From positions 1 through 37,155 of the forward strand of contig JAIPCT010000027.1 of assembly GCA_021738065.1 (NCBI GenBank): a stretch of 37,155 bases of DNA, read 5' to 3'. Each line of letters starts with the position of its first letter. Position 1 is the stretch's first letter. The stretch is from Burkholderiaceae bacterium. Lineage in GTDB: Bacteria > Pseudomonadota > Gammaproteobacteria > Burkholderiales > Rhodocyclaceae. The position numbers and the translations under genes were made by a program. This document shows, piece after piece, positions 8,461 to 29,161 of the stretch. Under the pieces are notes generated by a model. The model was not told the DNA's origin, did no database searches, and saw only the letters and a program-made list of their open reading frames with translations.

Positions 8461-9843
8461 ATGCACACACCCGCAGCTGAAATCTTCAAGGCCTATGACA
8501 TTCGCGGCATCGTGCGCACGACGCTGACCCCGGAGACGGTGTGCCAGATCGGTCAGGCGCTGGGCAGCGAAGCCGTTGCACGCGGCATCAAGGCCATCGT
8601 CATCGGTCGCGACGGCCGGCTTTCCGGCCCGAGCCTGGCGCACGCGCTGGCCCAAGGCATCACGCAAGCCGGCGTCAATGTCATCGACATCGGCCGGGTG
8701 CCGACGCCGATGACGTATTTCGCCGCCCACGAACTGGATACCGGGAGTTGCGTCTCGGTCACGGGAAGCCACAATCCGCCGGAGTACAACGGACTCAAGA
8801 TGGTGCTCGGCGGCCAGACGCTGTACGGCGAAATGATCCAGGACCTGCGACGCCGTATCGTCAGCGCCGACTTTTCCCAAGGCCGTGGCCGGGTACGCCA
8901 CGCCAGCGTGCGTCAGGCCTATCTCGATCGCATCGTCGGCGACGTCAGGCTCAGCCGCCCGATGCATATCGTCATCGATTGCGGCAACGGCGTGGCCGGC
9001 AGTGTCGCGCCGGACCTGTTCCGCCGCATGGGCTGCAAAGTGACCGAACTCTTCTGCGAGGTCGATGGCAACTTCCCCAACCACCATCCGGATCCCTCCA
9101 AGCCGGAGAACCTGGCCGACCTGCAACGCGTCGTGCATGAGACGGGCGCGGAGCTCGGGCTGGCCTTCGATGGTGATGGCGATCGTCTTGGTGTCGTCAC
9201 CCGCGATGGCGAAATCATTTTTCCCGACCGACAGCTGATGCTGTTCGCCGCCGACGTATTGACGCGCAACCCCGGTGCCCAGATCATCCATGACGTCAAG
9301 TGCTCGCGCTGGGTTGCCGAATCGATACGCCATCAGGGCGGCCGGCCGCTGATGTGGAATACCGGCCACGCCCTGATCAAGACCAAGCTGAAGGAAACCG
9401 GCGCGCCGCTGGCCGGCGAGATGAGCGGCCACATGTTCTTCAAGGAGCGCTGGTTCGGCTTCGACGACGCGCTCTACAGCGGTGCCCGCTTGCTCGAAAT
9501 CGTCTCGCGCTGGGATAACGCCAACTGGCCGCTGAAGCATCTGCCCAATGCCATCTCGACGCCGGAACTCAACATCAAGATGGAGGAAGGCGAACCTCAC
9601 GCGCTGGTCGCCAAACTTCGCCAGGGCGGCAAGAAACTATTGCCCGGCGCGCGCGAACTGATCACCATCGACGGCGTGCGCGCCGAGTATGCCGACGGCT
9701 TTGGCCTGGCGCGCGCCTCGAACACCACGCCGGTCGTGGTGCTGCGCTTCGAGGCCGACACCGAGGCCGGGCTGCTGCGCATCCAGAACGAATTCAAGGC
9801 GGCCCTCGGCGCCGCCTGGCCGGGCATCGATACCAACTTCTGA
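8461..9843 (+). CDS. Phosphomannomutase/phosphoglucomutase
   Basis: 460 residues, alpha-D-phosphohexomutase family, AlgC/ManB-like. It interconverts the 1- and 6-phosphates of glucose or mannose for LPS, exopolysaccharide and nucleotide-sugar synthesis. The phosphoserine is Ser103 in VTGSHNPPEYNG, metal ligands are in AFDGDGDRLGV, the sugar-binding loop is GEMSGHMFF, and the C-terminal phosphate loop has RASNTTPVVVLRFEA. Length matches Pseudomonas AlgC (about 463). ATG 31 bases after the hydrolase stop. An antisense frame runs through most of it and is a codon-bias shadow. One copy of the dispersed 24-base motif lies at 8852-8875. Confidence 0.94.
   Translation: MHTPAAEIFKAYDIRGIVRTTLTPETVCQIGQALGSEAVARGIKAIVIGRDGRLSGPSLAHALAQGITQAGVNVIDIGRVPTPMTYFAAHELDTGSCVSVTGSHNPPEYNGLKMVLGGQTLYGEMIQDLRRRIVSADFSQGRGRVRHASVRQAYLDRIVGDVRLSRPMHIVIDCGNGVAGSVAPDLFRRMGCKVTELFCEVDGNFPNHHPDPSKPENLADLQRVVHETGAELGLAFDGDGDRLGVVTRDGEIIFPDRQLMLFAADVLTRNPGAQIIHDVKCSRWVAESIRHQGGRPLMWNTGHALIKTKLKETGAPLAGEMSGHMFFKERWFGFDDALYSGARLLEIVSRWDNANWPLKHLPNAISTPELNIKMEEGEPHALVAKLRQGGKKLLPGARELITIDGVRAEYADGFGLARASNTTPVVVLRFEADTEAGLLRIQNEFKAALGAAWPGIDTNF
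8852..8875 (+). repeat. Dispersed motif copy 1 (inside phosphohexomutase gene)
   Basis: CAGCGCCGACTTTT preceded by GCCGTATCGT. It matches 22 of 24 positions of the identical ubiH and pepP copies. It encodes RRIVSADF in the sense frame. Confidence 0.6.
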
Positions 9844-9957
9844 CGCCGCACGCCGTAGCGCCATCCGCAGCGGCGAGGAGAGCGTCTTCTGCTCGACCGC
9901 CCTGCTGCGCAGGGGCTTCACCAGCGCCGACTTTTACAGTTTCAGTTCGACCCAAGC
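9844..9957. other. Convergent intergenic gap between phosphohexomutase and alaS
   Basis: 114 bases between two converging genes. It holds a small hairpin CCCTGC/GCAGGG (9900-9914) without a T-run, so it is not a convincing intrinsic terminator. The dispersed motif core CCAGCGCCGACTTTT lies at 9921-9935 and lacks the extended flank of the in-gene copies. No gene seen. Confidence 0.6.
9921..9935 (+). repeat. Dispersed motif copy 2 (intergenic, core only)
   Basis: CCAGCGCCGACTTTT between two converging genes. The left flank does not match the GCCGTATCG seen in the gene-borne copies. Confidence 0.5.
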
Positions 9958-12555
9958 CTAGACCGAAGCCAGCGCCGCCGGCAAGTTCGCCGGATTGGTG
10001 CCACCGGCCTGCGCCATGTCGGGCCGACCGCCGCCCTTGCCGCCGACTTGTTGCGCGACATGGTTGACCAGTTCTCCGGCCTTGAGTTTGCCCGTGAGGT
10101 CGGCCGTAACGCCAGCAATCAGGCTCACCTTGCCCTCGCTGCTGCTGGCCAGCACGATGGCAGCGCTCTTGAGTTTGTCCTTGAGCTTGTCCAGCGTCTC
10201 GCGCAAGGCCGTGGCGTCGGCGCCTTCGAGCGTGGCCGCGAGGACCTTGATGTCTTTGACGTCGACCGCCTGAGCGAGCAGATCGTCGCCTTGCGAGGAA
10301 GCGAGTTTGCCCTTCAGCGCGGCCAACTCGCGCTCAAGTTTGCGCACCTGCTCCAGCACCGCAGCGACGCGCGCAGGCACATCGAGTGGCAGCACTTTCA
10401 GGGTGCCGGCAACGCCGCCCAGCGCCGATTCCATGCCTTGCATGTAGTCGAGCGCACGATCACCGCAGATTGCCTCGACGCGACGCACGCCGGCGGCGAC
10501 ACCGCCTTCGGCGACGATGCTGAAGAGCCCGATGTCGCCGGTGCGCAGCACATGCGTGCCGCCGCAAAGTTCGCGCGAGCTGCCGATATCAAGCACGCGC
10601 ACCTCGTCGCCGTACTTCTCGCCGAACAGCATCATGGCGCCCAACTGCTGCGCTTGGGCGATTGGCAGGACACGGGTTTCGCATTCCGTATTGGCGAGAA
10701 TCTCGGCATTGACCAGATTCTCGACGCGGCGGATCTCCTCATTGTTCATCGGTTGCGAATGCAGGAAATCGAAACGCGTTTTGTCCGCATCGACCTGGGA
10801 GCCCTTCTGCTGCACATGCTCGCCGAGGACTTCGCGCAGCGCCTTGTGCATCAGATGGGTGGCGGAATGGTGGCGCATTGTGCGAGCGCGTGCCAGGGTG
10901 TCGACTCTCGCCGTCACGCCATTGCCGACTTTCAGGGTGCCGGTGCTCACCACGCCGTGATGGCCGAATACAGCGGCCTGGATTTTCTGCGTGTCCTCGA
11001 GGGCGAAGATGCCGTGGGTCGAACGCAGTTCGCCGATATCGCCGACCTGGCCGCCGGATTCGGCATAGAAAGGCGTTTCGTCGAGCACCACCACGCCGAT
11101 TTCGCCTTCCTTCAACTCATTGACCGCCGTGCCGTCCTTGTATAGCGCCAGCACATTGCCCTTGGTCTCCAGTCCTTGATAGCCGTGGAAGGTGGTCGCA
11201 GGGCCGTCGTACTCGAGATTGGCCGCCATCTTGAATTTTCCGGCGGCGCGCGCCTGTTCCTTCTGCCGCGTCATGGCCGCATTGAAGGCGGCGCTGTCCA
11301 CGCTCATCTGCCGCTCGCGGCAGATGTCGGCCGGGAGATCGAGCGGGAAACCGTAGGTGTCGTGCAGCTTGAACGCAGTCTCGCCGTTGAAGATGGCGAC
11401 GCCGGACTTTTCCATCGCCTCCAGCTCGGCTTCGAGAATCGCCATGCCATGTTCGATGGTGGCGAAGAAGCGGTCTTCCTCCTGCTTGAGCACTTCCATC
11501 ACCCGCGTCTTGCCGCTCGCCAGTTCGGGAAAGGCCGCGCCCATTTCGTTCACCAGATCGGGAACCATGCGGTGAAAAAAGGCGCTGCGCGCGCCGAGTT
11601 TCCAGCCGTGACGAATGGCGCGACGGATGATGCGGCGCAGAACATAGCCGCGTCCCTCGTTGCCGGGGATCACGCCATCGGCGATGAGAAAGGAACAGGC
11701 ACGGATATGGTCGGCCAGCACGCGCAGCGAGGGGCTGTCCATGTCGGCGTCCGATGTCTCGCGCGCGGCGGCGGCGATCAGGGTCTGGAACAGGTCGATT
11801 TCATAGTTGGCGTGCACCTGCTGCAGCACCGCCGAAATACGCTCCAGACCCATGCCGGTATCGACCGAGGGTTTGGGCAGCGGATGCATCACGCCGGCCT
11901 CATCGCGGTTGAACTGCATGAAGACGTTGTTCCAGATTTCGATGTAGCGGTCGCCGTCCTCGTCCTCGCTGCCCGGCGGGCCACCCCAGATATGCTCGCC
12001 GTGGTCGTAGAAGATTTCGGTGCAGGGGCCGCAGGGGCCGGTGTCGCCCATCATCCAGAAATTGTCCGAGGCGTAACGCGCGCCCTTGTTGTCGCCAATG
12101 CGGATCACGCGCTCCGGCGGCACGCCGATCTCTTTGGTCCAGATGTCGTAGGCTTCGTCGTCCTCCGCATACACCGTGACCCAGAGCTTGTCGGCGGGCA
12201 GCTTGAAGACATCGACGAGCAGTTCCCAGGCGTACTTGATGGCGTCGCGCTTGAAGTAGTCGCCGAAGCTGAAGTTGCCCAGCATCTCGAAGAAGGTGTG
12301 ATGCCGCGCCGTGTAGCCGACGTTCTCCAGGTCGTTGTGCTTGCCACCGGCACGCACGCATTTCTGCGAGCTCGCGGCACGACTGTAGCTGCGCTTATCG
12401 AAGCCGAGAAAGACGTCCTTGAACTGGTTCATACCGGCATTGGTGAACAGCAGGGTCGGATCCTCATGCGGAACCAGCGAACTCGACGCCACCACCTGAT
12501 GGCCTTTCGACGCAAAAAAATCGAGGAACTGCTGACGGATTTCGGAGCTTTTCAT
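9958..12555 (-). CDS. alaS: Alanyl-tRNA synthetase
   Basis: 865 residues from the chosen start. Class II synthetase that charges tRNA-Ala, with an editing domain that clears Ser- and Gly-tRNA-Ala. Order: aminoacylation core from [19 protein letters not shown] with [15 protein letters not shown]; the GMGLERI motif; the editing domain with zinc ligands HSATHLMH and CGGTH; and a C-terminal coiled-coil and C-Ala end with [15 protein letters not shown]. The frame continues upstream to a TTG at 12579, but ATG 12553-12555 gives the family N-terminus. Its cognate tRNA-Ala(CGC) is in the same window at 19116-19191. Two long opposite-strand frames here are shadows. Confidence 0.97.
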
Positions 12556-12605
12556 GGCGGGGCGCGGACGTTGACGCAAAACGCCGATTTTACGTCAGCA
12601 GGATG

Positions 12606-12631
12606 CAAAAAGCCCGCGCACTGGCGGGCTT
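12606..12631 (-). terminator. Rho-independent terminator after the small secreted protein gene
   Basis: On the minus strand AAGCCCGC and GCGGGCTT form a perfect 8-base stem with loop CAGTGC, running directly into a T5 tract. It lies 17 bases past the stop of the gene at 12649-13008 and before alaS, insulating the two. Confidence 0.85.
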
Positions 12632-12648
12632 CGCTGGGTCAGGCCGGT

Positions 12649-13008
12649 CTACTTCTTTTTGCGCGGACGATCCGTTTTGCCGTCGTGATTGAGGTCGCGC
12701 TGACGATCATGCTTCTGCCGGTACACCTTATCACTCTGTTGGTTCTGTGCATGCTGCAGGCGCGCGCGTTCCTTTGCCGTGACGGTGCCGTCGGCCTTGG
12801 CCTTGTCTTCCATTGTCTGGATGCGTTCCTGGCCCTTTTCCAGGCGCGCCGCTTCCTTGCCGGTCAATTGCCCCGAACTGACGCCCTGGTCGATGCGCTG
12901 TTGTTGTTGCACCTGGCGCTGATCGACGCCCGGAGTATTGGTTTGCGCCAGAACCGGCAGGGAAATTGCGGCAAGCGCAACGATCAACAGGCTGGAAATG
13001 CGTTTCAT
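12649..13008 (-). CDS. Small secreted basic protein with an EF-hand-like loop
   Basis: 119 residues. A signal peptide MKRISSLLIVALAAISLPVLA with likely cleavage before QTNTPG sends it to the periplasm. The mature part is charged and helical, with two related segments: LTGKEAARLEKGQERIQTME and VTAKERARLQHAQNQQSDKV. Near the end DLNHDGKTD has the Dx[ND]xDG spacing of an EF-hand or dockerin calcium loop, followed by a basic RPRKKK tail. AAGGAG lies 6-7 bases before the ATG; the longer frame upstream is rejected because the signal peptide starts here. I know of similar uncharacterised betaproteobacterial proteins but no function. Confidence 0.8.
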   Translation of the reverse strand: MKRISSLLIVALAAISLPVLAQTNTPGVDQRQVQQQQRIDQGVSSGQLTGKEAARLEKGQERIQTMEDKAKADGTVTAKERARLQHAQNQQSDKVYRQKHDRQRDLNHDGKTDRPRKKK

Positions 13009-13107
13009 GTATTGCTCCTTATGAGTGACAGGGAACAGTCCCATGGGCAAGATAACGCCCGAGACTCGGGCGCGCTGACTTTGAAATGTAAGCTCGCGTA
13101 AGCAGCT

Positions 13108-13827
13108 TTACATTTCCGAGGGTCGCCAGAGATCGGGGCGGTCGGTGAACACCGCAGCGACGCCGATGCCAAACAAACGCTCGGCTTCCTCACGACGATT
13201 GACGGTGTAACACGCCAACAAGAATCCGGCGTCGAGAACGGCCGAATGCGCTCCCGCTTTCAAGCTCTGCGCCGCGCAGTGCAAGGCCTGCGCTCCCGAC
13301 TCGGCCATGCGCTCGCGCCAGTCGCCCGGAATCGTCTCGACCACCAGGGCGCGCGGCAGTTGCGGTGCCTGATCGGCTGCGGCGCACAGCGCAGCCAGCG
13401 AAAATGAAGACAAGAGCAGTTGGCCCCCGATTTCTGCCGCATGTCGGGCGACCACCCGGCCGGTCTCCACTTCCTGCTCTGTCGACGGCTTGATTTCCAC
13501 ATTCGCCCACAAATCCAGCTCGGCACAGAGGCGCAATGCCTGGTCGAGGGTCGGCACCGGTTCCCGGGCGAAGGCCGGGTGATGCCGGCTGCCGGCATCC
13601 AGTCGGGCGATGTGCTCCGAATCGATATCGGCCACCCCTCCCCGCCCCGAGGTCGTGCGCTCCAGCGTTTCGTCGTGCATCAGCACGGGAACGCCATCGG
13701 CGGCGAGCATGGCGTCAAACTCGACGCCGCGGCAGCCCAGGCGGGCGGCGAGACGCAGCCCAGCCAGGGAATTTTCCGGCGTCAGCGCTCCGCCACAGCG
13801 ATGCGCAATGATGCGCGGATACTTCAC
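13108..13827 (-). CDS. ugpQ: Glycerophosphodiester phosphodiesterase
   Basis: 239 residues, GDPD TIM-barrel, cytoplasmic UgpQ type. It hydrolyses glycerophosphodiesters to glycerol-3-phosphate and an alcohol. Catalytic and metal residues appear in IAHRCGGALTPENSLAG (HR and PEN), VEFDAMLAADGVPVLMHDETLERTTSG (the E-x-D and HD pairs) and NVEIKP. No signal peptide. The start is GTG, overlapping the stop of the solute-binding protein gene by four bases (GTGA), so the two are coupled. The pairing supports uptake followed by hydrolysis of glycerophosphodiesters, but the transporter channel genes are not here. Confidence 0.93.
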   Translation of the reverse strand: MKYPRIIAHRCGGALTPENSLAGLRLAARLGCRGVEFDAMLAADGVPVLMHDETLERTTSGRGGVADIDSEHIARLDAGSRHHPAFAREPVPTLDQALRLCAELDLWANVEIKPSTEQEVETGRVVARHAAEIGGQLLLSSFSLAALCAAADQAPQLPRALVVETIPGDWRERMAESGAQALHCAAQSLKAGAHSAVLDAGFLLACYTVNRREEAERLFGIGVAAVFTDRPDLWRPSEM

Positions 13828-15083: not shown

Positions 15084-15115
15084 GCATCGTCCCGGATTGA
15101 TTCAACAAGGCCGAG

Positions 15116-15144
15116 TTTATACGTGATCTCTTTCCTCCCGGAAA
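15116..15144 (-). promoter_or_regulatory. Candidate promoter for the ugpB-ugpQ unit
   Basis: Minus strand: TTTCCG (15139-15144), a 17-base spacer and TATAAA (15116-15121), about 33 bases before the start codon. The -35 is weak. The 116-base gap is shared with the divergent membrane-protein gene. Confidence 0.35.
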
Positions 15145-16007: not shown

Positions 16008-16426
16008 TCAGTTTCCGCGACCCAAGAGAATCTGGATTCCACGCTTCGCGCGGCCAAAACAGCTTTTGGGCGAGTTTGCCCCCGTCTCGGCAGCGCCGAT
16101 TTTTCCGGACGACGAAAGACGTGAGTTTTTCCGATTCAGCGCAGGCGCCAGGTACGATTTCCGTAACGCCAGCCTGGCGTTACCATTCCCGGTCAACTGG
16201 CATTGACACCGAACCGCCATCCAACTATTGTCATCCAAGCAGTGTTGCGCTCCTTGGTCGATGGTGCGGTCATCGGTTGGTCGCCGCACAGCGTTGATTC
16301 TGAGCGCGATCTGCCGAGCAAGGCAGGCCGCAAATTGCTGGTGGGCAATCCGGTTTGCAATGAATTCTCGGGGGTACCTCGAAATTTGAGCTCTGTCGAT
16401 TTCAAGCCACGCACCGGAAGGTAGAG
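16008..16426. other. 419-base gap with no convincing gene
   Basis: This is the only stretch over 300 bases without a gene. Short open frames exist on both strands (for example 16203-16424 +), but none has a recognisable motif or good start signal. It contains a perfect inverted repeat (16162-16182), a near copy of the dispersed motif (CAGCGCCGATTTTT at 16091-16104) and, at its right end, the GGAAGG ribosome-binding site of the cyclase. It looks slightly lower in G+C than its flanks. The cyclase promoter must lie here, but I cannot place it. Confidence 0.6.
16162..16182. repeat. Perfect inverted repeat GTAACGCCA-GCC-TGGCGTTAC
   Basis: Nine-base arms with a three-base loop. No T-run follows on either strand, so it is more likely an operator-like dyad or a decayed repeat than a terminator. 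It lies 245 bases upstream of the diguanylate cyclase. Confidence 0.55.
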
Positions 16427-17610: not shown

Positions 17611-18723
17611 ATGAACACCATAGAACTACTCGTCCGCAAGGACCAGCTCGCTCGCGTCGAACTGCGCGAGACACCTGCGATCCCGCTCGAAGAAGGCCAG
17701 GTACGTCTTGGCGTTGAAAGCTTTGCGCTGACCGCCAACAACATCACCTATGCCGCTTTTGGCGAGGCGATGAATTACTGGCGCTTTTATCCGGCGGAGG
17801 AAGGCTGGGGGCGCATACCGGCGTGGGGCTTTGCCAGCGTGCTTGAGTCACGGCATCCCGAGATCGCGCCGGGCGAAAAATTCTATGGCTACTACCCGAT
17901 GTCTTCCAGCGTCGTCCTCCTGCCCCATCGACTTTCAGCGAAGGGGTTCATGGACGGAGCGGAACATCGCGCGCAATTGCATTCCGTGTACAACGCATAC
18001 TTGCGTTGCAGTCATGACCCGTTCTATACCCCGCAGACCGAAGGGGCTCAGGCCTTGCTGCGGCCGCTTTTCATCACCTCGTGGCTGATTGATGATTTCC
18101 TGGCGGACAACGATTTCTTCGCCGCAAACGCCGATGGTCACAGCACGATGTTGCTGTCCAGCGCCTCAAGCAAGACAGCCTATGGCACGGCCTTTCAGCT
18201 GGCCCAGCGTGCCGGCATTGAAGTCGTCGGCCTGACCTCTGACGCCAATCTTGGGTTCTGCCAGGGCCTGGGTTGTTATCACCGGGCGCTGAGCTATAAC
18301 CAACTGGACCAAATTGCAGCCGCCACGCCTTGTGTGTATATCGACTTTGCGGGCAATGCCGATCTGCGTAGAAACATTCATTCCCGTTTCGGGAATCTGA
18401 GATACAGCAGTTCTATCGGCGGCACGCATGTCACGCAACTCGGCGGCGCGAAAGACCTTCCCGGTCCACGTGCCACGCTATTTTTCGCCCCGGCGCAAAT
18501 CAAGAAACGAAGCACCGAGTGGGGCGCCGAACGACTTGAGCAGAAGCTGCTGCAAGCATGGCATGGCTTCATTGTCAAAGCATGCGATGCGACATCGCCC
18601 TGGCTCGTTTTCAGACATCATCGCGGCCCGGAAGCCGCCAAAGTCGCCTATCTCGAAGTGCTCTCCGGAAACACCGATCCACGTCTCGGACACGTGCTTT
18701 CCCTGGCGCCCGGCGCTGCCTGA
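17611..18723 (+). CDS. DUF2855 family protein (MDR-like fold)
   Basis: 370 residues. The style is that of DUF2855, distant relatives of medium-chain dehydrogenase/reductases: LTANNITYAAFGEAMNYWRFYPAEEGWGRIPAWGFASV near the start, a YYPMSSSVVLLP segment, then a nucleotide-fold-like half with LLSSASSKTAYGTAF, VVGLTSDANLGFC and VYIDFAGNADLRR. The usual Rossmann GxGxxG is replaced by SSASSKTA. The start ATG at 17611 gives the MNTIELLVRKDQ terminus; the frame upstream has no support. A 140-base gap separates it from the cyclase. Enzymatic role is unknown. Confidence 0.85.
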   Translation: MNTIELLVRKDQLARVELRETPAIPLEEGQVRLGVESFALTANNITYAAFGEAMNYWRFYPAEEGWGRIPAWGFASVLESRHPEIAPGEKFYGYYPMSSSVVLLPHRLSAKGFMDGAEHRAQLHSVYNAYLRCSHDPFYTPQTEGAQALLRPLFITSWLIDDFLADNDFFAANADGHSTMLLSSASSKTAYGTAFQLAQRAGIEVVGLTSDANLGFCQGLGCYHRALSYNQLDQIAAATPCVYIDFAGNADLRRNIHSRFGNLRYSSSIGGTHVTQLGGAKDLPGPRATLFFAPAQIKKRSTEWGAERLEQKLLQAWHGFIVKACDATSPWLVFRHHRGPEAAKVAYLEVLSGNTDPRLGHVLSLAPGAA

Positions 18724-18759: not shown

Positions 18760-19014
18760 CTAGCCGCGTGGCGGGTTGCCCTTGGCAGTAGCCGATGACG
18801 GCGCTTGCCGTTGCTGTTTTGCCTTCTTGATGTCCACCACGATCTTTGCCGCCGCAACGACGTTCACCAGTGCCACGGCCAGCGCCGGCCAGAGGGGCAA
18901 CTCCTGACCGGACCTCAAACCATAGACGAGCAAGCCCAAAAGCGCGAGGCCGCCGATGAGCAGTGTCACGATGCTACCGCTGATGAAACCCTCTTGCTTG
19001 GAAATCAAAGCCAA
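18760..19014 (-). CDS. Small two-helix membrane protein
   Basis: About 84 residues. The open frame runs upstream into tRNA-Ala, so the first ATG at 19176 cannot be used. AGGGAGA just before TTG codons at 19014 and 19008 suggests one of these as start. The product has hydrophobic helices SIVTLLIGGLALLGLLVYGL and LWPALAVALVNVVAAAKIVV, then a basic tail KKAKQQRQAP. I recognise no family. Start and even reality are less certain than for neighbours, though the paired helices and the ribosome-binding site argue for a gene. Confidence 0.55.
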   Translation of the reverse strand: MALISKQEGFISGSIVTLLIGGLALLGLLVYGLRSGQELPLWPALAVALVNVVAAAKIVVDIKKAKQQRQAPSSATAKGNPPRG

Positions 19015-20611: not shown

Positions 20612-20700
20612 CCGGGCCGTTCAGAAAGGCCACCGACGATGCTGCCGAAGAGCGAATCAAACTCACACCGTTTCCCTGGAAGCGGGAAGGATGGACGGAT
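20612..20700 (+). repeat. Degenerate intergenic repeat overlapping the purK 3' end
   Basis: It resembles copy B: CCGTTCAGAAAGGCCACC, then CTGCCGAAGAGCGAATC, then CCGTTTCCC...GGGAAGGATGGACGG with hairpin arms TTTCCC/GGGAA. The right half lies within purK and encodes its last residues and stop. Similarity is clear at the hairpin plus GGATGG and weaker elsewhere. Confidence 0.4.
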
Positions 20701-21844
20701 CTTCCTCGATGCCGATCAGTCGCCGTGCCGCCAGCGCCGACTTTTGCACTTGCTGCGCGTCGCTGCCGATCACCGTGAAATGCCCCATCTTGCGTCCGGG
20801 GCGAGCGTGATGCTTGCCGTAGAGATGCAGCTTGAGATTGGGCACTGCGAGCAATTGCGTCCAGTCCGGCTCATGGCTGTGATGAGGATCGCGCAGGTAC
20901 CACAGGTCACCCAGGAGGTTCACCATGACGGCGGCCGAATGCGCCCGTGCCTCGCCCAAAGGCAATCCGGTGAGCGCCCGCACCTGCTGTTCGAACTGAT
21001 TGGTGACGCATGCATCGAGACTGAAGTGTCCCGAATTGTGCGGACGCGGAGCCATTTCATTGACGACCAGTTGCCCGCACACGATGAAGAACTCGACGGC
21101 CAGGGTGCCGACATAGTCCATTCTTTGCGCGATGCCTTCGGCGATTTCTTCCGCATTGCCCGCCAGACAGCCGCTGGTTCGCGCCGGAACGATGGAGACA
21201 TCCAGAATGCCGTGGCGATGACTGTTTTCGACGGTCGGAAAGCATTTCACCACCCCGGCCGAATCGCGCGACAGCACCACCGAAACTTCATAATCCAGTG
21301 GCAGCATCTGCTCCAGTACACAGTGTTCGCTCTTCGTCTGGCGATACGCGAGCAACGCCTCCTCGCGACTCTTGACCCGAACCTGCCCCTTGCCATCGTA
21401 GCCAAACCGGGCGACTTTCAAGATGCCGGGGAACAGCCCGGCGTTGGCTGCGGCGAGGTCTGCCTCGCTGCAAATATCGGCGTAGGGCGCGTGAGGAAAA
21501 CCGTGCTGCTTAAGAAAACCCTTTTCGGCGCTGCGATTCTGACTGATGGCGACGGCGTCGGCGCCGGGACGCACCGGAATGAACTTGGACAGATAGGCCA
21601 GGCTGCCGGCAGGAACATTCTCGAACTCGGTGGTCACGGCGGCGCAGGATTCCGCCATCCGGTTCAAAGCGTCGGGATCGTCAAACGCCGCCACCAGATG
21701 CTGATCGGCGATGCGCCCCGCGGGGCTCTGCGGATCGGGATCGAGCACCAGTACGCGGTAACCCAGTTCATGAGCAGCGATTACAAAGAAGCGGCCAAGT
21801 TGGCCGCCACCCAGCATGCCGAGCGTGGCGGGCGGCAGAATCAT
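20663..21844 (-). CDS. purK: N5-carboxyaminoimidazole ribonucleotide synthetase
   Basis: 393 residues, ATP-grasp fold. It carboxylates aminoimidazole ribonucleotide to N5-CAIR in purine synthesis. Motifs: LGMLGGGQLGRFFV at the N-terminus, TTEFENVPAGSL, GYDGKGQVRV (glycine loop), EVSVVLSRD and NEMAPRPHNSGHFSLDACVTNQFEQ. I start at MILPPATLG; its ATG overlaps the purD stop by ATGA, whereas the frame further upstream lies inside purD. The C-terminal tail EEDPSILPASRETV is encoded by a degenerate intergenic repeat. A copy of the dispersed 24-base motif lies at 20722-20745. purE is not in the window. Confidence 0.95.
   Translation of the reverse strand: MILPPATLGMLGGGQLGRFFVIAAHELGYRVLVLDPDPQSPAGRIADQHLVAAFDDPDALNRMAESCAAVTTEFENVPAGSLAYLSKFIPVRPGADAVAISQNRSAEKGFLKQHGFPHAPYADICSEADLAAANAGLFPGILKVARFGYDGKGQVRVKSREEALLAYRQTKSEHCVLEQMLPLDYEVSVVLSRDSAGVVKCFPTVENSHRHGILDVSIVPARTSGCLAGNAEEIAEGIAQRMDYVGTLAVEFFIVCGQLVVNEMAPRPHNSGHFSLDACVTNQFEQQVRALTGLPLGEARAHSAAVMVNLLGDLWYLRDPHHSHEPDWTQLLAVPNLKLHLYGKHHARPGRKMGHFTVIGSDAQQVQKSALAARRLIGIEEDPSILPASRETV
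20722..20745 (+). repeat. Dispersed motif copy 3 (inside purK)
   Basis: CCAGCGCCGACTTTT preceded by GCCGTGCCG; 21 of 24 positions match the ubiH and pepP copies. In the purK frame (other strand) it encodes KSALAAR. Confidence 0.6.
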
Positions 21845-23109
21845 CGCTTGATGGCGCGAAACCCTATGTCGCGACGGCACTGCATGCCGTCGAAACTGAT
21901 CGGATCGAGCACTTCATAGGCGCGCTTCTGCGCCGCCTTGACGTTGTCGCCCAGCGCGGTCACGCAGAGCACACGCCCGCCGGAGGTGACGACTTCACCG
22001 TCCTGCTCTGCAGTGCCGGCATGGAAAACGTGGCTGTCTTCACTCGGCGCGGGCAGGTGGTGGATCACATCGCCCTGGCGCGGGGTTGCGGGATAGTTTG
22101 CCGCAGCCATGACCACGCCGAGCGCGACCCGCCTGTCCCATTTGGCTTCGACCTGATCGAGACGGCCATCGATGGCGGCGTCGATCAGCTCGACGAAATC
22201 GCTCTTCAGCCGCATCATGATCGGCTGGGTTTCCGGGTCGCCCATGCGGCAGTTGAATTCGAGCACGCGCAAACTTCCATCCGGCTTGATCATCAGCCCG
22301 GCGTAGAGGAAGCCGGTGTAGACGATGCCATCGGCGGCCATGCCATTGATGGTGGGCATGATGACTTCGCGCATGACACGGGCGTGGATTTCGGGCGTGA
22401 CCACCGGTGCCGGCGAATAGGCGCCCATGCCGCCGGTGTTGGGACCCTGATCGCCATCGGCAAGCCGTTTGTGATCCTGGCTGGTGGCCAGAGCCAGCGC
22501 GTGCCGGCCGTCGGCCATGACGATGAAACTGGCCTCCTCGCCGTCGAGAAACTCCTCGATGACAACGCGCGCACCGGCATCGCCCAGGGTGTTGTCGGCC
22601 AGCATCATGTCGACCGCGGCATGGGCCTCGGCCACGTTCTCGGCGACCACCACACCCTTGCCCGCCGCCAGGCCGTCGGCCTTGACGACGATGGGCGCGC
22701 CTTCGGCATCGATGTAGGCATGCGCGGCGGCGATATCGGTGAATGTTTCGAACTTGGCCGTCGGTATGTTGTGGCGCCTCATGAAACGCTTGGCGAAATC
22801 CTTGGAGCTTTCGAGCTGTGCGGCGGCCTTGGTCGGCCCGAAAATGCGCAGGTTGCGGGCCCGGAACACATCCACGATGCCTTGCGCCAGCGGTGCCTCG
22901 GGACCGACCACCGTGGCGTGCACCTTTTCCCGCGCCGCGTAGTCCGCCAGTTCGTGGATGTCGCTGAGCGGCAGGTTTTCCAGTTCCTGTTCGCGCGCCG
23001 TGCCGGCGTTGCCCGGTGCGACATACACCTTCTGCATGCCTGGCGCCTGGGCCAGACGCCAGGCCAGCGCATGCTCGCGCCCGCCGGAACCGACGACGAG
23101 GATTCTCAT
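21841..23109 (-). CDS. purD: Phosphoribosylamine-glycine ligase
   Basis: 422 residues, GAR synthetase, ATP-grasp. It joins phosphoribosylamine and glycine in the second step of purine synthesis. Motifs are VGSGGREHALAWRLAQ at the N-terminus, FGPTKAAAQLESSKDFAKRF, VVKADGLAAGKGVVVA, EEFLDGEEASF, PNTGGMGAYSPAPV and LEFNCRMGDPETQ. GGAGG precedes the ATG. The 109-base gap to purH holds a short fragment (GTGTTCAGAAAGGCGGGATGG, split as 23181-23201) resembling the head of repeat copy E. The stop overlaps purK. Confidence 0.97.
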   Translation of the reverse strand: MRILVVGSGGREHALAWRLAQAPGMQKVYVAPGNAGTAREQELENLPLSDIHELADYAAREKVHATVVGPEAPLAQGIVDVFRARNLRIFGPTKAAAQLESSKDFAKRFMRRHNIPTAKFETFTDIAAAHAYIDAEGAPIVVKADGLAAGKGVVVAENVAEAHAAVDMMLADNTLGDAGARVVIEEFLDGEEASFIVMADGRHALALATSQDHKRLADGDQGPNTGGMGAYSPAPVVTPEIHARVMREVIMPTINGMAADGIVYTGFLYAGLMIKPDGSLRVLEFNCRMGDPETQPIMMRLKSDFVELIDAAIDGRLDQVEAKWDRRVALGVVMAAANYPATPRQGDVIHHLPAPSEDSHVFHAGTAEQDGEVVTSGGRVLCVTALGDNVKAAQKRAYEVLDPISFDGMQCRRDIGFRAIKR

Positions 23110-23218
23110 GACGTGACCTCCAAACCACCCCAGGGCAGCTCGGTCCGGCTGGTTCCAGAGAAACGAACCGCGATCGCTCCGTGTTCAGAAAGGCGGGATG
23201 GAAGGCTGTTGGTCATGT

Positions 23219-24811
23219 TCAGTGCCTGAAGTGGCGAAAGCCGGTGACTACCATCGCCAGGCCCTGCTCATCGGCCGCGGCAATGACCTCAGCGTCGCGC
23301 ACCGAACCGCCGGGCTGGATCACCGCCGTGGCTCCCGCCTTGGCCAGCACATCGAGGCCGTCGCGGAAAGGAAAAAATGCATCCGACGCAGCGACCGAAC
23401 CGACCACTGTCAGTCCGTTGTTCTCGGCCTTGATGGCGGCAATGCGCGCGGAATCGACGCGACTCATCTGGCCGGCACCGACGCCGACCGTCATGCCGTC
23501 CTTGCAATAGACGATGGCATTCGACTTGACGTATTTGGCGACCCGCCAGGCAAACAGCAGATCGCTCATCTCCTGGTCGGTGGGCGCGCGCTTGGTCACC
23601 ACCTTGATGTCGGCCGGCGTGATGCGCGCCTCATCGGCGCTTTGCAACAACAAGCCGCCGCCGACGCGCTTGTAGTCGAAGACGCCCGCGCTCTTGCCGG
23701 CACTTGCCGCCAGGGGTACGACGAGCACCCGCAGATTCTGCTTCGCGGCAAAAACAGCGCGGGCTTCCGCAGTGATCTCGGGGGCAATGATGACCTCCGC
23801 AAACTGGCCGGCGATGGCTTCCGCAGCCGCTTTGTCGATGGCCACGTTGAAAGCGATGATGCCGCCGAAAGCCGAGGTCGGATCGGTCTTGAATGCCCGG
23901 GTATAGGTGTCTTCCGCATTTGCGCCGACGGCAACACCACAGGGGTTGGCGTGCTTGACGATGACACAGGCGGCCGGACCGACCGCGCCATCGAAGGCCT
24001 TGACGCATTCCCATGCCGCATCGGCATCGGCGATGTTGTTGTAGGACAGTTCCTTGCCCTGGATCTGCTGGTAGCTGGCTATGCTGCCGGCAAGCACCGC
24101 GGTCTCGCGATAAAACGCGGCCTGCTGATGCGGGTTCTCGCCATAGCGCAGGGTTTCCACCTTGTCGAACGCAAGTTGCAGCTTTTCCGGAAAAATGCCG
24201 GGCTGATTCTGTTCGTCGAGCGCGGTCAGCCAGTTGGCGATGGCGGAGTCGTAGCGCGCCGTGTGGGTGAACGCCTTTTTTGCCAGGGCAAAACGGGTCT
24301 TGTAGGAAAGTGCGCCGCCCGACTTGAGTTCTTCAAGTATCGGTGTGTAGTCTTCCGGATCGGTGACCACGCCAACGCCGCCCTGTTCGTTGCCGTGATT
24401 CTTCGCCGCCGCGCGCACCATGGTGGGGCCGCCGATGTCGATGTTCTCGATCGCATCGTCGAGCGTGCATCCGGGCTTGGCCACCGTCTCGCGGAAGGGA
24501 TAGAGATTCACCACCACCAGGTCGATTGGAGGAATGCCATGCTGCGCCATGACCGCGCAATGCTCGGGAAGATCGCGCCGCCCGAGGATGCCGCCATGCA
24601 CCTTGGGATGCAAGGTTTTGACGCGGCCGTCGAGCATTTCCGGAAAGCCCGTGTAGTCGGAGACATCGGTGACATCGAGCCCGGCATCGCGCAACAGTTT
24701 GGCGGTACCGCCGGTGGAAAGAAGCTTGACGCCCAGTTGGGCCAGGCCGCGGGCAAAATCCACCGTGCCGCGCTTGTCGGAAACGCTGATCAGCGCTTGT
24801 GTGACTTTCAT
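23219..24811 (-). CDS. purH: AICAR formyltransferase / IMP cyclohydrolase
   Basis: 530 residues, bifunctional, catalysing the last two steps to IMP. The N-terminal MGS-like cyclohydrolase domain (about 1-195) shows [40 protein letters not shown] and VNLYPF. The C-terminal AICARFT domain shows [38 protein letters not shown] and [13 protein letters not shown]-type residues ([14 protein letters not shown]). GAGAGG precedes the ATG. First purine gene of purH-purD-purK; fis lies upstream with a repeat between. Confidence 0.97.
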
Positions 24812-24824
24812 GAAAACCTCTCGG

Positions 24825-24952
24825 GATTTAACGTGAAGTAACTCGTTCGCAGCGACAGGCGATCGTCGAGCTCAGCGAGGAAATCAATAAGCTCCCCCGC
24901 GTCGGGGAGGATGGGTGGGGACGGCCCTGTTTGCGGCGTGTGCCTTGTGTCA
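24825..24952 (+). repeat. Intergenic repeat, copy D
   Basis: The clearest copy. It begins ATTTAACGTGAAGTAACTCG, has ATCGTCGAGCTCAGCGAGG, the hairpin CTCCCC/GGGGAG (24892-24908) and GATGGGTGGGGACGG, then a TTTGCGGCGTG tail. It fills most of the 173-base gap between fis and purH, so it would be in the 5' leader of purH or within a dusB-fis-purH transcript. Confidence 0.68.
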
Positions 24953-24984
24953 TCGTAGCGGGGCCTCCATTCGTCGCATTTGCC

Positions 24985-25215
24985 TTAGATCAGTTCGTGA
25001 TCGACCAACATGCGGCGCAGGGTACCGCGGCTGATGCCCAGCATGTCGGCCGCAACGGTCTGGTTGCCACCGGCCTGCTTCATGACGACTTCCAGCATGG
25101 GCAGTTCCACGCATTTCAGGACCATGTCGTAGATGGCGTGCGGTGCCTGGCCGTCGAGATCACGAAAATAGCGATTGAGGCTGCGCCGCACGCATTCCGG
25201 GATTTCGCTGCTCAT
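24985..25215 (-). CDS. fis: Nucleoid-associated regulator Fis
   Basis: 76 residues. The C-terminal helix-turn-helix QTVAADMLGISRGTLRRMLVDHELI is the conserved Fis DNA-binding end, preceded by LEVVMKQAGGNQ. Fis bends DNA and controls rRNA and growth-phase genes. It is shorter than the 98 residues of E. coli Fis, lacking most of the flexible N-terminal arm, as is common in betaproteobacteria. Its ATG overlaps the dusB stop (ATGA), the conserved dusB-fis arrangement. Confidence 0.95.
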   Translation of the reverse strand: MSSEIPECVRRSLNRYFRDLDGQAPHAIYDMVLKCVELPMLEVVMKQAGGNQTVAADMLGISRGTLRRMLVDHELI

Positions 25216-26246
25216 GCGGCCATCATTTCCGGAACCTGCTCTGCGCAGCGATCCTCGTATTGCAAGTGCTCGTTGGCCGCGGCATGACCGAGGAAAAATT
25301 CGTCGGTGGCGCTCAACTGTTCGTCGACGCCCTGCATCTGGTTCATGGCATGGCGGAAACCTGCCGCGCCGGCCAGGCCTTTGGTGTACCAGCTGATGTG
25401 CTTGCGCGCGATGCGCACGCCCGTATCTTCACCGTAGAAAGCGTAGAGATCCGCCAGGTGGCCGCGCAGAATATCGTGAATCTCCGCGACCCGCGGCGGC
25501 GGCAACAATTCGCCGGTCTCGAGGAAGTGTTCGATCTCGCGAAACAGCCAGGGACGTCCCTGGGCGGCACGACCGATCATGACCCCGTCGGCGCCGGTGT
25601 AGTCGAGAACGAACCGGGTTTTCTGCGGCGTACCGATGTCGCCGTTGGCGATCACCGGAATCCCGACTTGCGATTTGACCAGCGCGATGGTGTCGTATTC
25701 GGCACAACCCATGTACTGATCGGCGCGGGTGCGGCCATGAATGGCGATCGCACGGATGCCCGACTCCTCGGCGATGCGGGCGATTCGCGGGGCATTGCGG
25801 TTCTCGCGATTCCAGCCGGTGCGAAACTTGAGGGTGACCGGCGTATCCGGCACGGCAGCTACCACCGCTTCGAGAATTTTCGCCACCAGCGCCTCGTTTT
25901 GCATCAACGCCGAGCCGGCCATGACGTTGCAGATTTTTTTTGCCGGGCAGCCCATGTTGATGTCGATGATCTGCGCGCCGTTGTCCGCATTGTGCCGCGC
26001 GGCCTGCGCCATCATGGCCGGATCGGCGCCGGCAATCTGCACCGAAACCGGATCGACCTCTCCGGCATGGTCGGCACGACGGCGAGTCTTGGCGCTGCCG
26101 TACAGCAAGGAGTTGGATGTCACCATTTCGGACACCGCCAACCCGGCGCCGAGCTTTTTGCACAACTGGCGAAATGGTCGATCCGTCACCCCGGCCATGG
26201 GCGCGACAAACAGATTGTTGCGCAACTGGAAGCCGAGAAAATCCAT
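25212..26246 (-). CDS. dusB: tRNA-dihydrouridine synthase B
   Basis: 344 residues, FMN-dependent TIM-barrel. It reduces uridine to dihydrouridine in the tRNA D-loop. Motifs include LFVAPMAGVTDRPFR, the catalytic-cysteine loop INMGCPAKKICN, VTLKFRTGWN, AIHGRTRADQYMG and IANGDIGTPQ, then GADGVMIGRAAQGRPW at the phosphate site. Followed by fis with a four-base overlap. The upstream gap to ubiH contains repeat copy E and no clear promoter. Confidence 0.96.
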   Translation of the reverse strand: MDFLGFQLRNNLFVAPMAGVTDRPFRQLCKKLGAGLAVSEMVTSNSLLYGSAKTRRRADHAGEVDPVSVQIAGADPAMMAQAARHNADNGAQIIDINMGCPAKKICNVMAGSALMQNEALVAKILEAVVAAVPDTPVTLKFRTGWNRENRNAPRIARIAEESGIRAIAIHGRTRADQYMGCAEYDTIALVKSQVGIPVIANGDIGTPQKTRFVLDYTGADGVMIGRAAQGRPWLFREIEHFLETGELLPPPRVAEIHDILRGHLADLYAFYGEDTGVRIARKHISWYTKGLAGAAGFRHAMNQMQGVDEQLSATDEFFLGHAAANEHLQYEDRCAEQVPEMMAA

Positions 26247-26391
26247 ATCGGAATTGGGAAGGTATACGAAGGGACGGCGCGATTTTAACGCAAAGCGCGG
26301 TGGCCGTTATCGAGACTGCTTATTGCAGACCAAACGCTCATGGCACCACGCTCCACCCGCAGAAGATGAAACACGCAAGAAAACAAATTGA

Positions 26392-26478
26392 AGGCCCGCC
26401 CCCCATCCCCCCTCACGGGGGGCTACTGATCGGCTCGCTTCGCTCGGCTATTACCCGTCGTTCTGAACACGTAAATCA
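26392..26478 (-). repeat. Intergenic repeat, copy E (inverted)
   Basis: On the minus strand: TTTACGTGTTCAGAACGACG, GCCGAGCGAAGCGAGCC, then hairpin CCCCCCGTGAGGGGGG followed by GATGGGGGG. It shares the GCGAAGCGAGC block with copy C and the C-run, G-run, GATGGG layout with all copies. It lies between ubiH and dusB. Confidence 0.6.
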
Positions 26479-26490
26479 TTCGTTAAGGCA

Positions 26491-27672
26491 TCAGGGCCAG
26501 GCACGGGCGCCATAGATCATCCGCTTCGCCACAAAAGCGCGCAGCGACGGCATCAGATCGAGCGCCAGCAGACCGACCCCGCGCGCATGTTTCAAGGGGC
26601 CGAAATCGGAGGCAAAACTGTCCAGCAGCAGATTGGTAAAGCCGATCGCACCGCGCCGGTCGACCCGGCGGCCTTGTGCGTAAGCGGCGAGCACCTCGGG
26701 CGCACCGGGGTCGGCGACGCCATCCAGGTGTTGCGCCAGTTCCCAGATGTCGCGCAGTGCAAGATTGAATCCCTGGCCCGCCACCGGATGCAGGGTCTGC
26801 GCCGCATTGCCCAGCCAGACCTGCCGCTCGCCCACCGGATCCTGACGATAGCGCAGGCCGAGCGGATAGGCGCTGCGCGGGCTCGCCGCGGTAAATCGAT
26901 GCCGGGTGCCGAAGCGCTGTTGCAACAGCGCGAGAAATGCCGTGTCGTCCATCGAGCGAATCTCGGCCACTCGTTCATCGGCACAGGTCAGCACCACCGA
27001 ATAGCGCTCGCCGAGCGGCAGCAGTGCGACCGGTCCCTCACTGGTGAATCGCTCCCAGGCGACATTGCGATGCGGCGCGGCCACGCTCACGGAACACAGC
27101 ACGGCATGTTGCCCGTAGTCGCGCACAATACCGGCGTCAGGATCGACGGCGCCCTCGGCATAGGCGGTGAGCGCATAGCTCGCCGTATCGCCAGCGCCGA
27201 CTTTCTGCTTGTCCCGATAGGCGATAGCGGCCGCGGTCACCGCTGTGTCCAGCGCCGCGATCAGATCGCCCGCCGGCAGCACCCAGCCCAGCGCGTCGAG
27301 TCCGTGTTCGGCGGCGCGCAGACAGCTGCGTCCGAAACCGCCGCGCTGCGAGATATGAATAGTCTTGATCGGCGTCGCCGCAAGAGCCGGCCAAACGCCG
27401 AGCCATTCGAGAACCTGACGCGCGCCATCCGACAAGGCCAGCACGCGCCCGTCCTGGCGCACGGCATCGCGTTCGCGGGCCTCAAACAGTTCAGCACTCA
27501 CGCCATGAAGTTTCAGCGCGAGCGCCAGCGCCATTCCTGCCGGACCACCGCCGACGATGGCAACCCTGGGGTTGCCATCGTCGGCGGCCGGGTCGCGAAC
27601 TACTTGGCCGCCTCCCCGACTGACATCCGAATTCTCAAACAAGCCTGGAGAGACGTTTGACAAGCTATCCAT
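26491..27672 (-). CDS. ubiH: UbiH/UbiF-type FAD-dependent ubiquinone hydroxylase
   Basis: 393 residues from the chosen start. A flavin monooxygenase of ubiquinone ring hydroxylation. Visible are the FAD motif VAIVGGGPAGMALALAL, the DG-type strand RSAYPLGLRYRQD, and the second FAD motif VWLGNAAQTLHPVAGQGFNLALRDIWEL, which is very characteristic. Whether it is UbiH, UbiF or UbiI cannot be told from sequence alone. ATG 27672 has GAAGGGA six bases upstream; the frame extends to 27816, inside pepP. Even so, about 35 residues precede the FAD motif, more than usual, and part of them is encoded by a palindrome. A dispersed motif copy lies at 27182-27205. Confidence 0.88.
   Translation of the reverse strand: MDSLSNVSPGLFENSDVSRGGGQVVRDPAADDGNPRVAIVGGGPAGMALALALKLHGVSAELFEARERDAVRQDGRVLALSDGARQVLEWLGVWPALAATPIKTIHISQRGGFGRSCLRAAEHGLDALGWVLPAGDLIAALDTAVTAAAIAYRDKQKVGAGDTASYALTAYAEGAVDPDAGIVRDYGQHAVLCSVSVAAPHRNVAWERFTSEGPVALLPLGERYSVVLTCADERVAEIRSMDDTAFLALLQQRFGTRHRFTAASPRSAYPLGLRYRQDPVGERQVWLGNAAQTLHPVAGQGFNLALRDIWELAQHLDGVADPGAPEVLAAYAQGRRVDRRGAIGFTNLLLDSFASDFGPLKHARGVGLLALDLMPSLRAFVAKRMIYGARAWP
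27182..27205 (+). repeat. Dispersed motif copy 4 (inside ubiH)
   Basis: GCCGTATCG followed by CCAGCGCCGACTTTC. All 24 bases are identical to the reverse complement of 29100-29123 in pepP. In the ubiH frame (minus strand) it encodes KVGAGDTA. Confidence 0.7.
27548..27587. repeat. 40-base palindrome at the ubiH FAD motif
   Basis: Perfect 19-base arms (27548-27566 and 27569-27587) with a two-base centre. The arm reads CCGCCGACGATGGCAACCC. One arm encodes VAIVGG of the FAD motif; the inverted arm encodes the unusual residues just before it (ADDGNP). Confidence 0.85.
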
Positions 27673-27805
27673 CTTGATCCCTTCAACTTCGGCATCGTTC
27701 CCACCAGGATGAGCATCAGCCTGCACCGAAACTCCGCTGTGCTCCGCGCTCCGGGAAACGGGGCGACTATTCCGGCTCGCCTCGCGTGGGATCAGAGGAT
27801 CGGGA

Positions 27806-29161
27806 TCAGCCGGCACGTGCGTCGCGCATCAGCGCCTCGATGTCCGCAATCGTCTTCGGCGCGGCGGCGGTAATGATTTCGCAGCCGGTCGCCGTCACGA
27901 CTGCGTCGTCTTCGATACGCACGCCGATATTCCAGAAAGCTTCGGGCACATCGTCGGCAGCGCGGATGTAGCAGCCGGGCTCCATGGTCAGCACCATGCC
28001 GGGCACCAGCGGGGCCCAATTCTCGCCGGCTTTGTACTCGCCGGCATCGTGCACATCCTTGCCCAGCCAGTGACTGGTGCGATGCATGTAGAAGCGCTTG
28101 TAGGTCTCGGCTTCCATCACTCCATCCAGCGACCCGTGCAGCAGGCCAAGGTCGATCATGCCCTGCGCCAGCACCTTCAATGCGGTCTCGTGCGGATCGG
28201 CAAAAGTGGCGCCGGGGCGCACCGCGGCGATTGCCGCTGCCTGTGCATCCAGCACCAATCGATAGACATCGGCTTGCGCGCCGCTGAAGCGCCCGTTGAC
28301 CGGAAAGCTTCGCGTAATGTCCGAGGCATAACCGTTGAGTTCGCCGCCGGCATCGATCAGGAGCAGGTCTCCGTCGCGCAGGATTTGATCGTTGCCGACG
28401 TAGTGCAGGACGCAGGCATTGGCGCCACCGGCAACGATGGATGTGTAGGCCGGAAATTCGCAGCCGCGGCGACGAAATTCGTGCAGCAGTTCGGCTTCAA
28501 CCTCGTATTCGTAGCGTCCCGGCGCGACAAAGCGCATGGCCCGAATGTGGGCGTCGGTCGATAGGGTTGCGACGCGACGCATGATCGCAAGCTCGGCGTC
28601 ATCCTTGATCAGCCGCATGGCGTCCAGTTCGGCGCGGACATCGCGTATCGCGGCAGGCGCACGCTTGCCGCTGCGACTCGCCGCGCGCACGGTGTTCAGC
28701 GCCGTCGCGATGCGCTGATCCCAGCCGGCATCATGGCCAATGGAAAACCACAATGCCGGTTGATCTGCGAGCATTTCTCCCAGCTTGGCATCGAGTTCGC
28801 CAATGGCAAACGCCTGATCGAAACCGAAAGCTTCGCGGGCGCCGTCGGGGCCATGGCGAAAACCGTCCCAGATTTCCCGATCAAGATTTTTCTCGCGGCA
28901 AAACAGGATGGATTGCGGCGACCCGCCCCCATCACCAACTGCAATCACCAGCACGGCTTCGGGCTCGACAAAACCCGTCAGATACTGGAAGTAGCTGTCT
29001 GCCCGATAGGGGAAATGCGCATCGCGGTTGCGTGTCTGCTCGGCCGAGGTGGGAATGACGGCAATGCCGCCGCCGCCCTTTGCCATGCGATCGATCAGGG
29101 AAAGTCGGCGCTGGCGATACGGCTCGCAGGAGCTCTCAAGTGGCGGGTGCGGTGTATCCAT
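27806..29161 (-). CDS. pepP: Xaa-Pro aminopeptidase
   Basis: 451 residues, M24B metallopeptidase with the N-terminal aminopeptidase-P domain (about 10-150). It removes N-terminal residues before proline. Metal ligands are seen in LLIDAGGELNGYASDITRSF (two Asp), HRTSHWLG (His), TMEPGCYI (Glu) and GVRIEDD (Glu). The long upstream frame is rejected: MDTPHPPLESS lies just before the conserved YRQRRLSLIDRM, and the upstream part lies inside murU. Order murU-pepP-ubiH on one strand suggests a shared transcript, with only seven bases between murU and pepP. A dispersed motif copy is at 29100-29123. Confidence 0.93.
   Translation of the reverse strand: MDTPHPPLESSCEPYRQRRLSLIDRMAKGGGGIAVIPTSAEQTRNRDAHFPYRADSYFQYLTGFVEPEAVLVIAVGDGGGSPQSILFCREKNLDREIWDGFRHGPDGAREAFGFDQAFAIGELDAKLGEMLADQPALWFSIGHDAGWDQRIATALNTVRAASRSGKRAPAAIRDVRAELDAMRLIKDDAELAIMRRVATLSTDAHIRAMRFVAPGRYEYEVEAELLHEFRRRGCEFPAYTSIVAGGANACVLHYVGNDQILRDGDLLLIDAGGELNGYASDITRSFPVNGRFSGAQADVYRLVLDAQAAAIAAVRPGATFADPHETALKVLAQGMIDLGLLHGSLDGVMEAETYKRFYMHRTSHWLGKDVHDAGEYKAGENWAPLVPGMVLTMEPGCYIRAADDVPEAFWNIGVRIEDDAVVTATGCEIITAAAPKTIADIEALMRDARAG
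29100..29123 (-). repeat. Dispersed motif copy 5 (inside pepP)
   Basis: Minus strand GCCGTATCG followed by CCAGCGCCGACTTTC, identical over 24 bases to the ubiH copy. In the pepP frame it encodes PYRQRRLS. Confidence 0.7.

Follow-up and report, generated by a model that had tools for sequence, protein, structure and literature searches.

The window analysed here is a stretch of 37,155 nt from a genome of 3,395,880 bases (G000; 148 contigs, 87.6% complete), and its subject is a short DNA motif repeated within and between its genes. Five exact copies of the 13-mer CAGCGCCGACTTT lie at 8862, 9922, 20732 and 27192 on the + strand and at 29101-29113 on the - strand, where the initial annotation had placed them. 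The near copy reported at 16091 differs from the 13-mer by one mismatch, and scanning the window returned a further one-mismatch copy at 34892. In shuffled windows the mean number of copies with at most one mismatch was 0.10, and none of 100 dinucleotide shuffles attained the 7 copies counted in the window.

The best-studied copy (ACGCCGTATCGTCAGCGCCGACTTTT, 8850..8875, + strand, one mismatch) lies within a phosphohexomutase gene (8461..9843, + strand; PGM/PMM domains I-IV), reads in the sense direction and encodes the peptide RRRIVSADF. Within purK (20663..21880, - strand) the copy TCGCCGTGCCGCCAGCGCCGACTTTT at 20720..20745 (+ strand) is antisense to the gene and corresponds to KSALAARR. The same orientation is found for TCGCCGTATCGCCAGCGCCGACTTTC at 27180..27205 (+ strand; KVGAGDTA) in a UbiH-like FAD-dependent monooxygenase gene (26491..27816, - strand; FAD_binding_3 domain, the UbiH name being that of the initial annotation). 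The copy GAGCCGTATCGCCAGCGCCGACTTTC at 29100..29125 (- strand) lies in sense within pepP, encoding aminopeptidase P (27806..29425, - strand; AMP_N and Peptidase_M24 domains), with the peptide YRQRRLS. Four of the five exact copies are genic, as had been announced, and the encoded peptides IVSADF, KSALAAR, KVGAGDT and RQRRLS are those given earlier. The exception at 9922 falls between the phosphohexomutase stop codon (9843) and the end of alaS (9958), where CAGGGGCTTCACCAGCGCCGACTTTT (9910..9935, + strand) has the right part of the motif and a different left arm. The weight matrix described below adds a degenerate copy with four mismatches, TCGCCGTCACGCCATTGCCGACTTTC (10908..10933, + strand), antisense within alaS (9958..12579, - strand; KVGNGVTAR), and passes over position 34892. 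This alaS copy is perhaps partly constrained by the protein, since the motif-negative locus L111 has a 20.6-bit match with an identical right end. Another degenerate copy, CCCCCGTCTCGGCAGCGCCGATTTTT (16079..16104, + strand), was called intergenic. Window positions 9886-9935 share with loci L042 and L096 (minus strand) a longer block, GCTCGACCGCC-TG--GCGCAG--GCTTCACC, ahead of the right part of the motif. The window copy at 9922 may be a gene remnant, because the L042 site reads as coding (EKSALVKQLR).

Over the whole genome the exact 13-mer occurs 328 times (175 forward and 153 reverse), against 2 (1 + 1) for the same word read backwards. The motif was delimited on a sample of 422,383 bases (the 422-kb sample) formed by the window and 20 stretches picked from contigs already known to carry copies. 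Alignment of its 68 exact 13-mers defines a non-palindromic motif of 25 nt with sharp boundaries, CGCCGTnTCGCCAGCGCCGACTTTT, which is often preceded by a T and outside which the composition is flat. A weight matrix, seeded with these 68 13-mers and then iterated, detected 107 sites at a cut-off of at least 14 bits (about 1 per 4 kb) and none in a single order-2 Markov null set; the corresponding genome-wide figure of about 860 is an upper guess because the sampled stretches were picked for copies. Counting mismatches over 24 fixed positions, 105 sites had 0-5 mismatches (reversed control 0), 1 had 6 (control 2) and 23 had 7 (control 24). Copies are thus either good or absent, since those with 0-5 mismatches are in excess and those with 6 and 7 are at the control level; the spectrum is broader in G256, another genome of the genus. 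The 356 kb called as coding sequence contain 36 exact copies; 20 synonymous shuffles yielded only 0-2 copies each and 20 codon-order shuffles 0-1, and an origin by chance or codon usage was rejected on these counts. The commonest 11-mers in samples of G000, G038 and G148, which represent three genera, are likewise the motif. The initial annotation had named two outcomes that would speak against it, counts near the shuffled expectation and copies confined to the window. The counts are clearly not near that expectation (328 against 2; 36 against 0-2), and copies occur genome-wide, in relatives and at orthologous loci. Its observation is confirmed and is larger in extent than it reported.

The taxonomic distribution was established on 297 genomes of the family, drawn evenly, including G000 and representing 68 genera. 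Six genera are motif-rich (g1, g8, g19, g38, g46 and g64) and hold 39 of the 297 genomes; 37 of these 39 have 25-509 copies, the exceptions being G242 (6 copies) and G247 (0). Each of the other 258 genomes has at most 13 copies. The maximum of 13, in G056, is perhaps due to contamination, because this assembly has 730 contigs and nine of the 13 copies lie on three of them. Beyond the family, at most 3 copies were found in each of 368 genomes of the rest of the class. The motif was scored positive in 13 of 80 phosphohexomutase loci taken from named records; all 13 have one or more matches of at least 32 bits, and the best match among the other 67 reaches 20.6 bits. The 13 come from metagenome-assembled genomes (MAGs) whose record titles read Sulfuritalea, Rugosibacter, Propionivibrio dicarboxylicus, Rhodocyclales or Rhodocyclaceae bacterium, or uncultured beta proteobacterium. 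No match was detected in the stretches of Thauera, Azoarcus, Aromatoleum, Zoogloea, Dechloromonas, Azonexus, Methyloversatilis, Azospira and Accumulibacter, with the exception of a single 13-bit match in a Dechloromonas agitata stretch. In a tree of 81 phosphohexomutases, all 14 motif-positive rows (with the window) fall inside one group of 18 rows (SH-aLRT 97), and the row nearest to the window is a Sulfuritalea MAG with 90% identity. The motif state requires three changes on this tree, and neither this outcome nor the grouping varies when the columns of the motif site are removed; L092, counted as motif-negative, is only 3.7 kb long. Strict matches to the motif also occur in 59 stretches of viral contigs from IMG/VR (L210-L268), which are phages of such hosts or host DNA.

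A second form of the motif was found within the window's genus. G256 has only 32 main-form 13-mers, yet 17 weight-matrix sites were detected in 100 kb; an A replaces the G of CGACT in 16 of the 17, and 11 match GCGCCAACT exactly. Word counts performed de novo in G256 rank this new form first. Copies of the dialect CAGCGCCAACTCT number 239 in G256, 184 in G294 (which also has 25 of the main form) and 217 in G680, and each of the remaining 28 genomes of the genus has 0 or 1. The same three genomes read GCGCCAACTATT (SANY) at the phosphohexomutase site, and CGACT stands there in all 18 remaining orthologues that have 3 mismatches or fewer, so that the base has changed at identical codons. A change shared by hundreds of sites points to one trans-acting reader. 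The TAT variant CAGCGCCGACTAT, with 2-44 copies in each of the 31 genomes of the genus, is a minor form and was rejected as a dialect. In L102, a 21-kb stretch of a Rhodocyclaceae MAG, six of seven sites start with GTGCCGT and the seventh with CTGCCGT, against the usual CGCCGT, which is perhaps a further dialect at the left end of the motif. Some L102 sites (GTGCCGTCTCGCC) have TGCCGTCT in common with the DNA uptake sequences (DUS) of Neisseriaceae; the similarity was not interpreted as homology, since it is not followed by CTG, the core of the DUS.

The two motif-poor species belong to motif-rich genera and seem to have lost the motif: the 144 kb sampled from G242 contain 3 weak sites, and the 136 kb from G247 contain none. 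The near absence of sites in single species indicates that the chromosome can do without them. Word counts revealed no replacement word that stood out in the samples of G242, G247 and G023. The top word of G242, whose score equals that of the motif in the G148 sample, was rejected as a replacement, 7 of its 8 copies forming a local repeat on one 4-kb contig.

We then considered how copies arise and are kept. The phosphohexomutase site occupies the same position in many species, and the protein alignment is gapless across it, with some insertions or deletions just after. Motif-bearing species read RRI(A/T/V)SADF or a near form, against RRIADNDL, for example, in others. Usable orthologues were obtained from 29 of the 31 genomes of the genus (all except G676 and G681); 21 of the 29 retain the site with no more than 3 mismatches, and the remainder have 5-15. 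For a broader view, 55 coding sites of 14 motif-positive loci were aligned to orthologues with the site masked, so that the flanks alone located the homologous place, and matches not spanning the site were discarded; the resulting pairs are not independent, many concerning the same few sites. Against motif-negative loci, 1501 of 1620 usable alignments were ungapped across the site, with at most 5 mismatches to the motif in 1 of the 1501 and 6 mismatches in 21 more. Against motif-positive loci, 364 of 416 alignments were ungapped and the motif was kept in 256 of the 364. The predominance of ungapped alignments and the conserved site positions show that copies are made mostly by substitution in place and then held at their position.

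These alignments bear directly on the proposal that the repeats are remnants of small mobile DNA, that is, of an element inserting its own copies such as a miniature inverted-repeat transposable element (MITE), a repetitive extragenic palindrome (REP) or a minisatellite-like unit. Such an element would account for copies that are nearly full-length and all-or-none, and for the one array of seven head-to-tail copies with a spacing of 24-25 nt. However, homologous codons are mostly replaced with no added length, the best-studied site is gapless, and the flat composition outside the 25 nt indicates no longer conserved body. A base change shared by hundreds of sites in three genomes is also not expected of inserts. 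MITE- or REP-like insertion was thus rejected on the 1501 ungapped alignments, and the broader mobile-element explanation appears very improbable. The array itself (L039, positions 11466-11637, on contig C38 of G000) was called intergenic, has degenerate outer copies and is the sole one of its kind in the 422-kb sample.

With a crude gene caller, which called 84% of the 422-kb sample as coding, 60 of the 107 sites are fully genic, 45 intergenic and 2 across a gene edge. After collapsing the seven-copy array, 39 of 101 sites are intergenic for about 16% of the sequence (p = 6e-8). The intergenic density per kb is 1.06 between convergent genes, 0.64 between tandem genes and 0.32 between divergent genes, with 13 convergent versus 5 divergent sites (p = 0.018). 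Genic sites use all six frames, some being preferred: 25 are antisense KVGAGDTA-like, 14 sense AVSPAPTF-like, 9 sense RRIASADF-like and 8 antisense KSALARR-like, the two rare frames having 2 sites each. With copies in six frames encoding different peptides, protein homology provides no explanation, in line with the initial annotation. Opposed motif pairs less than 300 bp apart number 2 among the 107 sites. Three opposite-strand pairs, at 18760/18935 on contig C3 and 2724/2899 on contig C35 of G000 and at 18680/18855 on contig C1 of G008, are all separated by 175 bp; two have the +/- order and one the -/+ order, their contexts differ and the coincidence may be due to chance.

The orientation of the sites about the origin was analysed in one genome, G069, a single contig starting at dnaA-dnaN-gyrB, the terminus being taken as opposite. 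Among 67 sites of two patterns, a subset since the main 13-mer alone has 195 copies in G069, 29 are leading and 38 lagging (p = 0.33), and the chromosome quarters contain 21, 13, 13 and 20 sites. The strand-bias check suggested with the first observation thus gave, in the one genome where it was run, no orientation bias. Chi and KOPS, both 8 nt long and strand-biased about the origin, are like the motif asymmetric words abundant in the chromosome, but the motif has 25 nt and is strand-neutral in G069. A strand-biased guide was therefore rejected. More generally, an intracellular protein organising, segregating or recombining the chromosome, comparable to the readers of KOPS, matS or Chi, could read the motif, with natural selection keeping the sites. 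The genome-wide and fairly even spacing (coefficient of variation 0.79 over 82 gaps), the conservation at fixed positions and the low density between divergent genes are consistent with such a reader. We nevertheless consider it unlikely: orientation is unbiased, every quarter of the chromosome has sites, unlike a macrodomain mark, the motif is long and asymmetric, and a site serving the chromosome would hardly be expected to show a dialect shared by three genomes or to be nearly missing from single species. A self-mark for a defence or restriction-like system, or for some other intracellular reader of self DNA, would need the same pattern of high density, both strands, dialects and loss. However, the marks of known restriction and BREX-type systems fall far short of this length, and selection for self-marking would not easily build 24 fixed bases in place within genes, so that this explanation seems extremely unlikely.

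According to a 2025 paper (PMC12616744), uptake motifs are known for two families only, the Neisseriaceae and the Pasteurellaceae. The DUS of Neisseriaceae, up to about 13 nt long and read by the minor pilin ComP, are like the motif in having hundreds of non-palindromic copies on both strands, in genic and intergenic positions, confined to a lineage and with dialects differing at few bases. The two differ in that the motif is about double the length, seldom forms opposed pairs and has no word in common with the DUS, GCCGTCTGAA being counted 0 times in 422 kb against 1 for its reversed control. Set against the DUS definition of PMC3630211 (a GCCGTCTGAA-type word with a CTG core and A at +10, of which eight dialects with the CTG core are described there), the motif as written has no CTG and its reverse complement has one. 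The uptake signal sequences (USS) of Pasteurellaceae consist of a 9-nt core with AT-rich tracts, up to 32 nt in all. The motif resembles them in being genome-wide, extending over more than two helical turns, showing two dialects in the family and having a receptor that is only predicted. Unlike USS, it is one contiguous GC-rich block rather than a core with AT tracts, and the USS words are not enriched in 422 kb: AAGTGCGGT was counted 0 times against 5 for its reversed control, and ACAAGCGGT 4 times against 12. Since neither known word is enriched, a simple relative of DUS or USS was rejected. No earlier report of the motif was found in literature searches covering open-licence papers.

Taken together, the copies are far above chance, restricted to a clade, divided into dialects, and placed within genes mostly by substitution, on both strands and, in G069, without orientation bias. 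To our knowledge, biased DNA uptake followed by recombination is the sole process by which substitutions build a long word in hundreds of genes, in either strand, lineage by lineage and with dialects. On this basis we infer, with a probability of about 0.8, that the repeats act as a DNA uptake sequence spread over the genomes of a Rhodocyclales lineage around Sulfuritalea and Rugosibacter. The descriptions of DUS and USS in PMC12616744 and PMC3630211, with hundreds of copies, lineage restriction and dialects following phylogeny, support this assignment because the motif matches them. We find it highly probable that the motif works like an uptake sequence and file it neither as DUS nor as USS. 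Among the four possibilities first put forward for the repeats, the uptake-like signal is thus favoured; the mobile remnant is disfavoured because the orthologue alignments are mostly ungapped, and a KOPS- or Chi-type guide because there is no strand bias about the origin. A protein-binding site holds in the wide sense that some protein must read the motif.

The reader would be the uptake machinery, presumably through a pilin. The receptor at the cell surface, which is probably a minor pilin of the type IV class, would prefer DNA carrying the 25-nt motif, so that motif-bearing fragments from dead kin would enter the cell more frequently and recombine with the chromosome. This would favour alleles whose copy is better, and copies would accumulate and persist at fixed places, also within genes wherever the protein tolerates the encoded residues. 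Should the preference of the receptor shift, copies would follow, as in the CAACTCT dialect; should the preference or competence be lost, they would erode, as may have happened in G242 and G247. ComEC was identified in all 13 genomes examined, including these two, and DprA scored above the cut-off in 20 of 22 genomes, falling below it in the motif-rich G001 and in G294 (83% complete). Because ComEC and DprA occur with or without the motif, the machinery alone does not predict it. The dialect genomes G256, G294 and G680 share a separate pilin cluster, which gives no evidence on the receptor because the three may form one sub-lineage and the other genomes were read at some loci only.

Several observations weigh against an uptake sequence. 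Both ComEC and DprA are present in the motif-poor G242 and G247, and the motif-rich G001 (310 copies, 99% complete) has no strong DprA match, owing to an assembly gap or a real loss. The family PF16732 (ComP_DUS) gives no receptor marker, as its matches extend to 273 of the 297 genomes of the family irrespective of the motif. Neither a genus-wide comparison of the PilE-like pilin of G000 nor one of pilins that a pattern selected from 20 stretches revealed a pilin family tracking motif or dialect, although the pattern missed some pilins, for example in G242; these searches found no receptor. The mismatch spectrum is all-or-none, although intermediates would be expected if a 25-nt word had grown gradually. 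Gaps fall within the site in 119 of 1620 motif-negative and 52 of 416 motif-positive alignments. Not every change is a pure substitution, since G069, G001, G181 and G679 have unrelated sequence at the phosphohexomutase site with matches 12-39 nt longer than the gene of the window. Finally, inverted pairs used as terminators, which PMC12616744 describes as frequent in DUS and USS genomes without calling them essential, are rare here.

We regard it as probable that the motif represents either a third, independently evolved self-DNA recognition system for transformation, in environmental Rhodocyclales and with a contiguous word about twice the DUS length, its own dialects and a putative receptor, or, more boldly, a chromosome-wide 25-nt mark whose intracellular reader is of no known kind. 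If the former is true, this third case shares no core word with the other two, which would mean that such bacterial mate choice evolved repeatedly, and it would offer a new, much longer word for studying how a pilus receptor reads DNA. Related species with the other dialect or almost no copies make the coevolution of receptor and motif testable by comparative genomics. Protein segments such as RRIASADF, KVGAGDTA and AVSPAPTF have apparently been reshaped by a drive acting at the DNA level.

Unrelated to the motif, the window also contains a repeat of 60 nt, at 3934-3993 and 24893-24952, with 73% identity between the two copies.

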